Assembly (NCBI GenBank): GCA_016282315.1
Contig: JAEEKG010000084.1
Coordinates: forward strand, 1 to 42,041
Origin: Clostridiales bacterium
GTDB taxonomy: Bacteria > Bacillota > Clostridia > Oscillospirales > CAG-272
Reading direction: 5' to 3'
Length of the DNA stretch: 42,041 nt
How positions within the stretch are numbered: the stretch's first letter is position 1; the number at the start of each line of letters is the position of its first letter. Shown one piece after another: positions 9,209 to 14,073 of this stretch. The notes beneath the pieces are model-generated. The model did not search any database. It had not been told where the DNA came from and saw only the letters and a list, made by a program, of their open reading frames with translations. The translations under genes were made by a program, and so were the position numbers.

Positions 9209-10147
9209 ATGATTATTAAAGCAGTCAAATTCAGAAAAGACGGATTCTATTCTCAGCCATTTGCTTTTGGAGGAGAAGATGGTATTGAGAAATACGACAA
9301 AAATGTTCGATATCGCGGCAGTTTACAGAACTACCTTATTGACACAGGCAAAGAAGTCATTTTGGTAGATACGGGGCTTCCTTGCGGTACACCAGAGGAA
9401 GCGCCTGATGAAAACAATCTGGCATACACTGGTAAAGATATATGTTCATACATGGATGCGCTGAAAGCAATTGGGTATAGTGCAGAACAAGTATCAAAAA
9501 TACTTCTGACTCACAAGCATGCAGATCATTCCGGAGAACTCAAATCTTTTCCAAATGCAAAAATATACGTAAACGAAGAAGAAATATCTGCTGATGAATT
9601 GAAAGGTTTGAATAACATAGTTCCTGTATCATTCACTGATGGTGCATATTACAATTTCCCACAAAGTCAAAAGATTTGTGACGGAATATATTACATCAGA
9701 GCAAAAGGACACACAAAAGGAAACAGTATTGTTATAGTAGAAGATGAAGGACTCTTCTACATGCTTCATGGCGATATAACATATGTTGATGAAGCGCTTT
9801 ATCAAAACAAACTTTCGGTTGTATATGAGGATAGAGAAGAGGCGAGAAAAACCTTTGACCGAGTTCGTGAATTTGTTTCGAAACATCCGACAGTATATTG
9901 TGGAACACATACTCCTCAAGGATATGAGAATCTTGAAGGAAAGATTGTAGTCGATTTGAGTAATCCTCCGGAAACTATTCCAGCAGGAGAAATAGTATTC
10001 AAAACAGCTTCAGGAAAGTATGTATGTTCAATTTGTGGATATGTGTATGACCCGGCTGAAAACAACGGAGTTGCGTTCGAGGATTTACCTGATGACTGGA
10101 GATGTCCTCGATGCAAACAGCCTAAAGAAAAATTCAACAAAGCGTAG
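9209..10147 (+). CDS. Metallo-beta-lactamase-fold hydrolase fused to rubredoxin
   Basis: The N-terminal part (about 1-250) is a lactonase-like MBL domain with a full metal set: HKHADH (His102, His104, Asp106, His107), His168, Asp189 in HGDITY, and His234. The C-terminal 43 residues are a rubredoxin with two CxxC pairs (Cys273/276 and Cys299/302) and the usual [10 protein letters not shown] and PDDWRCPRC segments. Flavodiiron NO/O2 reductases also combine MBL and rubredoxin, but they use an HxExD ligand set and a flavodoxin domain. Here the ligands are HxHxDH, and the flavodoxin is on the neighbouring gene. AAAGGAGG precedes the ATG. It is the last gene of the redox operon. The reaction is unknown. 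Confidence 0.88.
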
Positions 10148-10292: not shown

Positions 10293-10721
10293 ATGAAAAG
10301 AGTAATTAGTTTAGTTGTTTTAGTAGTTATGGTATTTAGTTTGTCATCATGCTTTTTATCAAATAACTATTCAGCTTCTTCAATGAAGTCAGGACTTGAA
10401 AAAGCAGGCTTTTCTGTTGTTGAAAATCCTTATATATCAAGTTTAGATTACAAGGATGCTAAAGGTTTGCAGAAAGTTGTTTACGGATATAAAACAGTTA
10501 ACGGCGAAGAAGTTGGCGTTTTATTGTTCGTATTTGACAGCATAGATAACGTAAGTGCTTTCACAGATGCTTCAAGTGAGAGATTAGGTGTTATCAACGA
10601 TTGGGCTAGAAAACATGCATCAAATGAAGAGGGTGGTTTCGTAGGAACTGCCAACAACGTTTTCTGGGCAGGAGACAAAGAAGGTAGAATCGCTGCAGGT
10701 ATCAAATTGTTGACAGACTGA
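10293..10721 (+). CDS. Predicted lipoprotein of unknown function
   Basis: The ATG at 10293 follows AGGGGGG closely and gives a clean lipoprotein signal (MKRVISLVVLVVMVFSLSSC) with lipobox LSSC and Cys20 as the anchor. Upstream in-frame ATG 10248 lacks this logic. The mature part of about 120 residues has the pattern SMKSGLEKAGFSVVENPYIS and later strands. No family comes to mind beyond small clostridial lipoproteins with a helix followed by beta strands. It has its own promoter and terminator and is thus a single-gene unit between the redox operon and the cyclic-di-GMP genes. Confidence 0.75.
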   Translation: MKRVISLVVLVVMVFSLSSCFLSNNYSASSMKSGLEKAGFSVVENPYISSLDYKDAKGLQKVVYGYKTVNGEEVGVLLFVFDSIDNVSAFTDASSERLGVINDWARKHASNEEGGFVGTANNVFWAGDKEGRIAAGIKLLTD

Positions 10722-10749
10722 TAATCGACGATTAATATCAAGCTAATAT

Positions 10750-10806
10750 GGCAGGTTTATAGACAAATCCATGTTTTCAGATTGTCTAAAAGCCTGCCTT
10801 GTTTTT
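10750..10806 (+). terminator. Rho-independent terminator after the lipoprotein
   Basis: GGCAGGTTTATAGACAAAT pairs with ATTGTCTAAAAGCCTGCC with a few mismatches around the loop CCATGTTTTCAG. A T-rich tail (TTGTTTTTTG) follows from 10799. Confidence 0.75.
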
Positions 10807-10851
10807 TGTTACAATTGCCAAGAAAAAAGAGGTTTAACAAATTATTTGTGC

Positions 10852-10881
10852 TTGATATAATTTTCATAATAGGTGTATAAT
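10852..10881 (+). promoter_or_regulatory. Promoter reading into the EAL remnant
   Basis: TTGATA (10852-10857) and TATAAT (10876-10881) lie 18 bases apart. The predicted start is close to or within the degraded EAL segment. It may now drive the diguanylate cyclase at 11203 through a leader of about 310 bases. Confidence 0.4.
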
Positions 10882-10909
10882 AATACGTACTCAAAATATT
10901 TTCTTTTAA

Positions 10910-11086
10910 GATAAGATGCTTTATGATTGAGAAATCATTCAATCAATCACAGAACTTTCTGAGTCGTTCAATATGATGGTTATAGCTTAATATGTCGAGG
11001 ATTAAGAATCCAAAAAGACATTGCATGAAATAGGGTGTGATTGTTATCAGGGATACATCTACTCCAAAGCTGAGCCCATAGAATAA
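10910..11086 (+). pseudogene. Decayed C-terminus of an EAL-domain cyclic-di-GMP phosphodiesterase
   Basis: A single reading frame, interrupted by stops at 10928, 10988 and 11003, still spells the end of an EAL domain. It has Asp-Lys (10910-10915, the DK of the metal-region motif), then EIIQSITELSESFNMMVIA. Next comes a stop where AEGVE would have its first Glu, and then HEIGCDCYQGYIYSKAEPIE before the final TAA. EAL enzymes degrade cyclic di-GMP. The stops fit simple base changes from GAA or GAG, and no frameshift is needed. The N-terminal two thirds are gone: the lipoprotein terminator lies only about 100 bases upstream. It sits directly before two GGDEF genes, so the locus once probably encoded both synthesis and breakdown. 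Confidence 0.75.
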
Positions 11087-11102
11087 AAGTTGGTCGTTTT
11101 GA

Positions 11103-11120
11103 ATATAACAATAGTTATAT
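11103..11120. repeat. 7-4-7 inverted repeat upstream of the first diguanylate cyclase
   Basis: ATATAAC and GTTATAT are perfect arms around AATA, 83 bases before the ATG at 11203. It may be an operator or a chance AT-rich palindrome. Confidence 0.3.
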
Positions 11121-11202
11121 CGTGTCTATTTGTTTTGCACATAGCCGATTTGTAGAATAAAAAACATTTTTGTTAATCGTTTACAACAAAAGGAGAATTA
11201 CT

Positions 11203-12924
11203 ATGAAACCAGCTAGTTTTGACAATTTATCTTTTGTTATCGGATTGGATCACGTTATCCAGAACTATAATAAACCCGCTAAAGAAACCTTTCCCAAAAT
11301 AGAAAAAGGGTGTCATTGTTATGAGGCAATGAGGGGGTATTCTTCACCATGCCCTGATTGCCCGATTTACGGAAAAGACGGTAAGGGTAATTTGCTTTAT
11401 AATGTTCCTGGAACCGATAAAAAGTATTATGCATCTTTTTCTAACATCACATTAAATGATGGATCAGACGGTTATATTGTTTCTGCAAGCGAATCGGATT
11501 ACGAAAAAGATAAAAGAGATTTTGAAATAGATCAACTGCTTCACAAGGCTGAGATTTTCCGTAAGGCAAACTATAACTGTGCTTATTGTTATTTTGATGT
11601 CAACCTGACAAAGAATCTATTGACATCAGATTTGGTCGAAGTTGTAGATGAAGTTGAATATAAATTGGATATGACAACAAGAGGTTTTACGTATCCTATT
11701 AAATTTACAGATTACACGAAGTGGTTCCACGATCTGAAGGTCATATCAGATAAAGAAGAATATGAAGATATGACAAATCGTGAAAAACTCATTGAAAGAT
11801 ACAATCAGGGTATCACAAGTGCAAGTCTTATTTTCAGAGCAAGATCTACATCCGGTTATCTGACATGGCATAAACACAGCATATACATGTACAAGGTAAA
11901 AGGAAATGATGATTTGTTTGCAATTTACGTTTTGAGAGATATTGCTTTCAAGGTAATCAATGAAGACAATACACGTAAAAACGAAGACATCGTAAGAATT
12001 CTTGCAAATGAATATGCAACCGTTCTTTATGTAGATGTGTTAACAGGTGTGGTTTCAAGTTGTAAATTGCCTAAATCCTGGGATGCAAGTCTGAAAAAGG
12101 ATATAAGCGACAAACCTTTTACTGAGGTGTGGAGAAAGTACATAAAACTTTATGTAAAGAATTCTGATGCTGAAAAAATGTCTAAATTGTTAGACAAAGA
12201 ATACATGACTCAGTATTTTGAGAATAAAACAAATCTGTCTTTTGTTTTTAGAATGGGAACAGAGAGTGAGTTCAAATACTATGAACTAAAAGTTGTTAAA
12301 GCAAACGAAGGCGATTTGAAAGCGTTGGTTGTAGGTATGGCAGATAAAGATGAAGAAATTCGTTCTGCCAATGAAATGCAGAAACAGCTTGAAACAGCTC
12401 TCGTTCTTGCCCAAAATGACGCTCTTACAAATGTCCGCAATCGTACAGGGTATGATATGTGTGAAAGACAAATCAATGCAGAACTCGAAAAAGGCAATGC
12501 TGATGGATTTGCCGTTATCATGTTCGACGTGAATGGTCTTAAGATGGTAAATGATGCTTATGGTCACGATAAGGGCGACCAGATGCTGATAAATGCATGT
12601 AAGATTATTTGTGATGTGTTTAAACACAGTTCAGTATTCAGACTTGGCGGAGATGAGTTTGTTGCTGTTGTAAGAGGGAAAGATTATGACAAGTGCAACT
12701 CATTGCTGCAAAAACTTCGTGATATAGTTACAGAAAACGAAGAAAAAGATGGACCTGCATATGAAAATGTGTCTATGGCCAGCGGAATGGCGATATATAA
12801 TCCGAAAATAGATAAGTACGTATACGACGTATTTATGAGAGCTGATGAAGCTATGTATGAGAATAAAAATCATATGAAGGTTCTGAGAGCTAAGAGAAAC
12901 CTGCAAAGAAGAAACAGAGGTTGA
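11203..12924 (+). CDS. Diguanylate cyclase with Cys-rich PAS-like domain
   Basis: This makes cyclic di-GMP from two GTP. The GGDEF active site is intact (residues 482-486, in FRLGGDEF), within a full domain starting near LTNVRNRTGYD. The product-inhibition site (RxxD five residues before GGDEF) is absent. The N-terminus is a short PAS-like domain with CHCY and PCPDCP (Cys37, Cys39, Cys50, Cys53), a pattern seen in many clostridial GGDEF proteins. It may bind metal or sense redox state. A second, weaker PAS-like region fills about 100-400. No membrane segment is seen. The ATG at 11203 has AGGAGA upstream; the earlier TTG at 11170 is unsupported. The sensory role is inference. Confidence 0.9.
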   Translation: MKPASFDNLSFVIGLDHVIQNYNKPAKETFPKIEKGCHCYEAMRGYSSPCPDCPIYGKDGKGNLLYNVPGTDKKYYASFSNITLNDGSDGYIVSASESDYEKDKRDFEIDQLLHKAEIFRKANYNCAYCYFDVNLTKNLLTSDLVEVVDEVEYKLDMTTRGFTYPIKFTDYTKWFHDLKVISDKEEYEDMTNREKLIERYNQGITSASLIFRARSTSGYLTWHKHSIYMYKVKGNDDLFAIYVLRDIAFKVINEDNTRKNEDIVRILANEYATVLYVDVLTGVVSSCKLPKSWDASLKKDISDKPFTEVWRKYIKLYVKNSDAEKMSKLLDKEYMTQYFENKTNLSFVFRMGTESEFKYYELKVVKANEGDLKALVVGMADKDEEIRSANEMQKQLETALVLAQNDALTNVRNRTGYDMCERQINAELEKGNADGFAVIMFDVNGLKMVNDAYGHDKGDQMLINACKIICDVFKHSSVFRLGGDEFVAVVRGKDYDKCNSLLQKLRDIVTENEEKDGPAYENVSMASGMAIYNPKIDKYVYDVFMRADEAMYENKNHMKVLRAKRNLQRRNRG

Positions 12925-12993: not shown

Positions 12994-14073
12994 ATGATTA
13001 AAGATTTCATTTTGCAAAACTGGGCTACAATTCTTGTAGTTGTTGCTTTTGCAATATTGCTAAAAACAACTGTCTTTTTGGAACGAAAAGTCATAAACAG
13101 GATGTTTTTGTTAATCACAATGATTTTTGTGCTGTCGATTATTGTGTTCTTTGAGTTTTATTTTGGTGATCAAGGCACAAACAAAGAACTAAGAGTAGTG
13201 CTGATGGCAATCAGGTATAGTGCTACACCTTTTATAATTGCAATGGTAATGTATACACTTGTCAAGAAAGCTCCTTGGTATATATTCACCCCTGCGATGG
13301 TGTTTGCGATACTTAATTTCATTTCCATATTCACTGGCATTGTTTTTGGCTTGGATGAGAAAGGCAATCTGGTAAGAGGAGCGCTTGGATATTTGCCATA
13401 TATAGCGGTGGGAGTATATAGTTTCTTTTTGGTATTTATCCTCATTAAACAAAGTAATAAGCAAGCAACTGAAATCATTCCGATAATGTTTTTGTGTTTT
13501 GCCTTTGCCTCGGGATTGGTTTTGCCTTTTGTTCTCGGCAAGAATTATTCTCAGATTTTCTGTACAACAATAGTAATTGCATTGTTTGTCTATTATGTCT
13601 TTTCAATTCTGCAAATTACAAAGAAAGACCCACTTACCGGCCTTTTGAATCGTCAGGCATACTATGCGACAATTGAAGACAACCCTAAAGATATAACTGC
13701 GATTGTATCCATAGATATGAATGGATTAAAGCCTATTAATGACACTAAAGGGCATGCCGAAGGCGATAACGCCATAGTAACTTTGTCACTTTGCTTTTTG
13801 CGTGCTGCAAAAGCCAAACAATTGGTTTTCAGAGTCGGTGGAGATGAATTTGTTGTTGTGTGCCGCAGAACAAGTGAAGACGAAGTTAAACTATTTGTTG
13901 ATTTAGTTCAAAAATATGTATCTGAAACTGATTATAGCTGCGCAATTGGTTATAGTTATTCATCTGATGGCTCTAAGTCAATAGATGAAATGCTCTTGGA
14001 ATCAGACAAGATGATGTATGCTCAAAAAGCATTGCATTACGCCAAATTAGGCGTAGTGAGAAATCACGACTAG
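12994..14073 (+). CDS. Membrane-bound diguanylate cyclase
   Basis: About seven hydrophobic segments fill residues 5-210 and are followed by a GGDEF domain (about 215-359) that starts DPLTGLLNRQAYY. It has an intact active site FRVGGDEF (282-286). The inhibitory RxxD site is missing, as in the preceding cyclase. The membrane part probably senses a ligand or membrane state; I recognise no named sensor family. I chose the ATG at 12994, with GGGAG seven bases upstream, over 12961. It follows the first cyclase after 69 bases with no terminator between, so both may be cotranscribed. No intact EAL or HD-GYP gene is in the window. Confidence 0.88.
   Translation: MIKDFILQNWATILVVVAFAILLKTTVFLERKVINRMFLLITMIFVLSIIVFFEFYFGDQGTNKELRVVLMAIRYSATPFIIAMVMYTLVKKAPWYIFTPAMVFAILNFISIFTGIVFGLDEKGNLVRGALGYLPYIAVGVYSFFLVFILIKQSNKQATEIIPIMFLCFAFASGLVLPFVLGKNYSQIFCTTIVIALFVYYVFSILQITKKDPLTGLLNRQAYYATIEDNPKDITAIVSIDMNGLKPINDTKGHAEGDNAIVTLSLCFLRAAKAKQLVFRVGGDEFVVVCRRTSEDEVKLFVDLVQKYVSETDYSCAIGYSYSSDGSKSIDEMLLESDKMMYAQKALHYAKLGVVRNHD

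Follow-up and report, generated by a model that had tools for sequence, protein, structure and literature searches.

A probable pseudogene remnant of a PTS_EIIC–EAL fusion gene in front of two GGDEF genes of a Clostridiales bacterium

EAL-type c-di-GMP phosphodiesterases are represented by the Pfam profile PF00563. In PTS_EIIC–EAL fusions (PF02378 + PF00563), the EAL domain follows a PTS_EIIC domain, which a review (PMC8846402) counts among the rare phospho-receiver domains of c-di-GMP proteins. The window studied here, meaning the whole stretch of 42,041 nucleotides, carries a short sequence that can be compared with both. It matches the last fifth of the EAL domain above the Pfam cut-off but lacks about 80% of the domain, and should therefore not be an enzyme; a full EAL domain with its catalytic residues in one open frame is not present. 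With the PTS_EIIC–EAL fusions it shares their last ~49 residues, including the tail signature (e.g., HEIGCDCYQGY), but it lacks the EIIC domain and most of the EAL domain, and what is left is interrupted by three stops. The stretch is very probably a pseudogene remnant without function, comprising the last ~49 codons of a PTS_EIIC–EAL fusion gene. The features of the region are listed in Table 1.

Table 1. Features of the remnant and its surroundings (positions in the window)
Feature	Position	Strand	Basis or remark
Upstream gene, 142 aa from ATG 10293, lipoprotein-like by eye	10293..10721	+	No Pfam family over the cut-off
Terminator-like hairpin and T-rich run, 3′ of the upstream gene	10750..10798	+	Fold of 10735–10820: −25.6 kcal/mol, z −4.3 versus 200 shuffles
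Two overlapping sigma-70-like promoter matches, 11/12 each, just 5′ of the remnant	10834..10881	+	Consensus scan
5′ part of the span first described, with TAA 10907	10889..10927	+	Homology uncertain; significant match only from codon 10925
Decayed C-terminal tail of an EIIC–EAL gene (probable)	10928..11074	+	EIIC–EAL HMM 60 bits, Pfam EAL, shuffle control
GGDEF-1, 573 aa from ATG 11203, AAAGGAG site 5′	11203..12924	+	Pfam GGDEF 89.9 bits; predicted cyclase
GGDEF-2, probably 359 aa from ATG 12994; listed ORF opens at TTG 12961	12994..14073	+	Pfam GGDEF 69 bits; predicted cyclase

A preliminary description of this DNA had read a dead EAL phosphodiesterase with three stops in the frame 10889–11086 (+), just 5′ of two GGDEF genes on the same strand. 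The frame translates as described there, and the identity, position and orientation of the remnant are borne out. With stops read as X, the frame matched Pfam EAL at 10925–11068 (+) with 42.2 bits (cut-off 31.3, E = 7.7e-11), covering profile positions 188–235 of 236, i.e., the final 48 positions. A whole-genome search with the EAL profile recovered the same place. The match holds three stops (one TGA and two TAA), so the earlier count is right for the match itself; the whole span holds four internal stops (TAA 10907, TGA 10928, TAA 10988 and TAA 11003) before the terminal TAA 11084. An HMM built from nine intact EIIC–EAL relatives gave 60 bits on the window frame at 10928–11074 (positions 655–703 of 710). 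The residues DK, formerly assigned to the EAL end, are encoded at 10910–10915, outside both the Pfam and the HMM match. As a control, 500 dinucleotide shuffles of 10700–11230 were read in six frames and scored with the same HMM. The top score among them was 9.8 bits, which excludes a chance match as the origin of the EAL similarity.

The stops had also been said to stand where Glu codons would be expected. In the alignment rows, judged by eye, TAA 10988 falls on a column with Glu in nine of nine intact relatives and TAA 11003 on a column with Glu in six of nine, while TGA 10928 falls on an Arg/Lys column (five Arg and four Lys among the nine). The statement is therefore right for two of the three stops.

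Of the 295 family genomes, 27 yielded a tail match at E 1e-4 or better, in many cases to some other EAL protein. Outside the genus, the ten best matches comprise nine frames of 703–736 aa and one 75-codon tail (genome G122), with 50–66% identity. When five of the nine long frames were submitted to Pfam, each showed PTS_EIIC followed by EAL. Both these ten matches and the HMM score place the remnant with the EAL tails of the PTS_EIIC–EAL subfamily, intact members of which are present in nine of the sampled family genomes. No N-terminal PTS_EIIC domain was found in the same gene: the window contains no further significant profile match, and no other part of EIIC–EAL, N-terminal remains included, exceeded the inclusion threshold of the 710-position profile in the 42 kb. 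Named genomes, possibly without records of the window's own genome, were scanned with the tail alignment; this yielded at least 499 relatives, and the best 80 loci were kept. Of these 80, 75 are full length, three are cut by a contig end and two are broken, namely L162 and L144, the latter through a change of frame or a sequencing error. Going by record titles, the best 80 of the at least 499 loci come mostly from MAGs of rumen clostridia; a few belong to isolates (Anaerosolibacter carboniphilus and Niameybacter massiliensis among them), and individual records carry the label Bacilli or Abditibacteriota.

The parent would have been a membrane protein with a sugar-permease-like N-terminal domain and a C-terminal c-di-GMP phosphodiesterase. 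Its EIIC domain, for which we infer a sensory role, probably acted as a sensor or phospho-receiver for the phosphodiesterase. A deletion may have removed most of the gene, and the remaining tail would then have drifted without constraint. Among the 19 columns invariant in nine intact tails, the remnant keeps 16, and one of the three lost is a Glu replaced with a stop. Its mean identity to the intact tails is 54%, compared with 64–69% for the intact tails among themselves. Such values would be expected if constraint was lost not very long ago. In a simulation of neutral decay from the nine intact tails, with assumed mutation weights, 15–20 substitutions (75–80% identity to the parent) produced at least three stops in 3–5% of runs, so the stop count of the remnant is on the high side, not extraordinary. 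In the five genomes of the genus (completeness 72–96%), the profile search found PTS_EIIC in none and HPr in all. A DNA-level match to 10700–11230 was obtained only in the own genome among these five, and no syntenic intact EIIC–EAL copy was found for the locus, so decay in place stays presumptive.

The terminator-like hairpin 3′ of the upstream gene was not listed by the terminator consensus scan, the loop limit of which is 8. The promoter scan found 16 sites overall versus 16.0 expected from shuffles. Should one of the two promoter matches preceding the remnant be genuine, the remnant now forms the leader of the GGDEF-1 transcript, and the tail would probably lie within the untranslated part of this transcript. 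A riboswitch or another structured leader, such as a c-di-GMP riboswitch, was ruled out, as Rfam gave no match at the gathering score in the window and none at E 1 in 10700–11230, and the predicted fold of the leader is no more stable than that of shuffles (z −0.33). No repeats or inverted repeats, which might indicate a mobile element around the remnant, were found in 10700–11230. Further upstream, positions 9209–10147 encode a metallo-beta-lactamase-fold protein with a C-terminal rubredoxin domain, according to Pfam.

Three other relics of EIIC–EAL genes were compared with the remnant. The first, in the congeneric genome G004 (contig C8; L056, 5582–5800), is 55.6% identical to the remnant over 36 residues and occupies an interval of about 200 bases between its neighbouring genes, with one TAA at the upstream end followed by 49 open codons; its mean identity to the intact tails is 68%. 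The second (G122, contig C127; L097, 3474–3698; mean identity 59%) is a 75-codon tail without stops behind another gene. G122 belongs to genus g6, in which another species, G009, has a full-length EIIC–EAL gene. The third (L162, 4819–5207; Lachnospiraceae MAG RUI379) has an internal deletion of ~560 codons, and positions 11–72 and 635–708 remain, in different frames. As in the remnant, only the C-terminal part (~45–75 codons) is left in these relics, together with 62 N-terminal positions in L162. They differ from the remnant in their contexts and in their stops, the G122 and L162 tails being stop-free and the G004 tail having one TAA.

The G004 relic bears on the possibility that the fragment arrived through a rearrangement, as a copied or moved tail, and that a full EIIC–EAL gene never stood at this place. 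It sits in a different context, between a GGDEF gene and a GGDEF–EAL gene, the orthologues of which abut within a few bases in G003 (contig C24). At the DNA level, the remnant and the G004 tail match over 41 coding bases only, and their flanks do not match at all. In addition, the gene next to GGDEF-1 in G003 is a HAD-type hydrolase on the opposite strand, and in G004 a relative of this gene lies ~1.4 kb ahead of the tail, a sign that the neighbourhood has been reshuffled. However, the repeat-free surroundings of the remnant argue against such an arrival, and L162 provides a known example of a relic formed by simple internal deletion. An origin by rearrangement is considered rather unlikely, and the preferred reading remains a gene that lost most of its length by deletion.

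It had further been suggested that the locus lost its local brake on c-di-GMP. Under this proposal, GGDEF-1 and GGDEF-2 had the lost EAL gene as a dedicated partner, and c-di-GMP rose locally once that gene had died. The two predicted cyclases themselves appear as claimed: the GGDEF motif is intact at residues 493 (GGDEF-1) and 293 (GGDEF-2) of the listed ORFs, and the RxxD feedback site is absent in both at the spacing before the motif that we take to be the I-site position. The remnant and the GGDEF genes are adjacent and share a strand, which speaks for a partnership, as does the frequency of GGDEF genes near intact EIIC–EAL genes. A GGDEF HMM from 16 sequences was used to search the flanks of the best 80 of the at least 499 loci (at most 5 kb per side, 536 kb in total), and a GGDEF gene was found in the flanks of 12. 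In six of the 12 it immediately follows EIIC–EAL in the same orientation: four were called by the script rule, and L138 and L146 seem to belong here from a reading of their overlapping frames. The chance expectation for the 536 kb is ~3.6 at the density of the window's own genome (13 per 1.9 Mb). The EIIC–EAL/GGDEF pair thus recurs in a minority of loci, and the ancestor of the present locus may have had one.

For these particular cyclases, however, the evidence does not support a lost brake. At E 1e-60 or better, GGDEF-1 is matched in five of the 295 family genomes, among them its own. The profile gave no significant EIIC–EAL match upstream of the GGDEF-1 orthologues in G003, G004 and G008 (one hit, E 0.17), and for the orthologue in G163 the comparison covers 142 upstream bases. 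The orthologue in G008 (contig C9, 32171–33853) has a TAA inside the matched stretch. BLAST of the window neighbours against the EIIC–EAL loci revealed no shared gene order, and returned GGDEF domains and weak matches, one in L158 (35%) and two or three in L172 (27–42%). The GGDEF proteins beside EIIC–EAL found in this way resemble GGDEF-1 over 69–174 residues, in the GGDEF part only. The terminator-like hairpin 5′ of the remnant and the promoter-like sites directly before it also disagree with a partnership. Besides the remnant, the genome has 13 GGDEF matches, five full-length EAL proteins, one partial EAL protein and seven HD_5 matches. The five full EAL domains align to the EIIC–EAL profile from the first motif through QGY/QGF, and with the HD_5 matches they mean that a capacity for c-di-GMP degradation remains in the genome. 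A lost local brake thus seems improbable for GGDEF-1 and GGDEF-2.

It is highly doubtful that EIIC–EAL genes die repeatedly by tail-sparing deletions, often beside GGDEF genes, because a cyclase gene further downstream retains the tail DNA as its leader or control region. That the present tail serves GGDEF-1 as a regulatory leader, encodes a small peptide or is read through at its stop codons is scarcely credible, since the promoter-like sites just 5′ of it, its retained invariant columns and a number of stops above that typical at its identity are set against a frame broken by three stops, the lack of an Rfam match, a leader fold no better than shuffles and the absence of the tail from the upstream DNA of three GGDEF-1 orthologues.

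As a pseudogene, the remnant carries little weight for the wider field. It is an ordinary relic, mildly informative on the loss of a sugar-linked phosphodiesterase. It ties the locus to the sugar-permease-linked phosphodiesterase of many rumen clostridia, which is missing from the five genomes of the genus, and fits a history in which c-di-GMP control lost one sugar-linked input, rather than one in which two given cyclases lost their brake.
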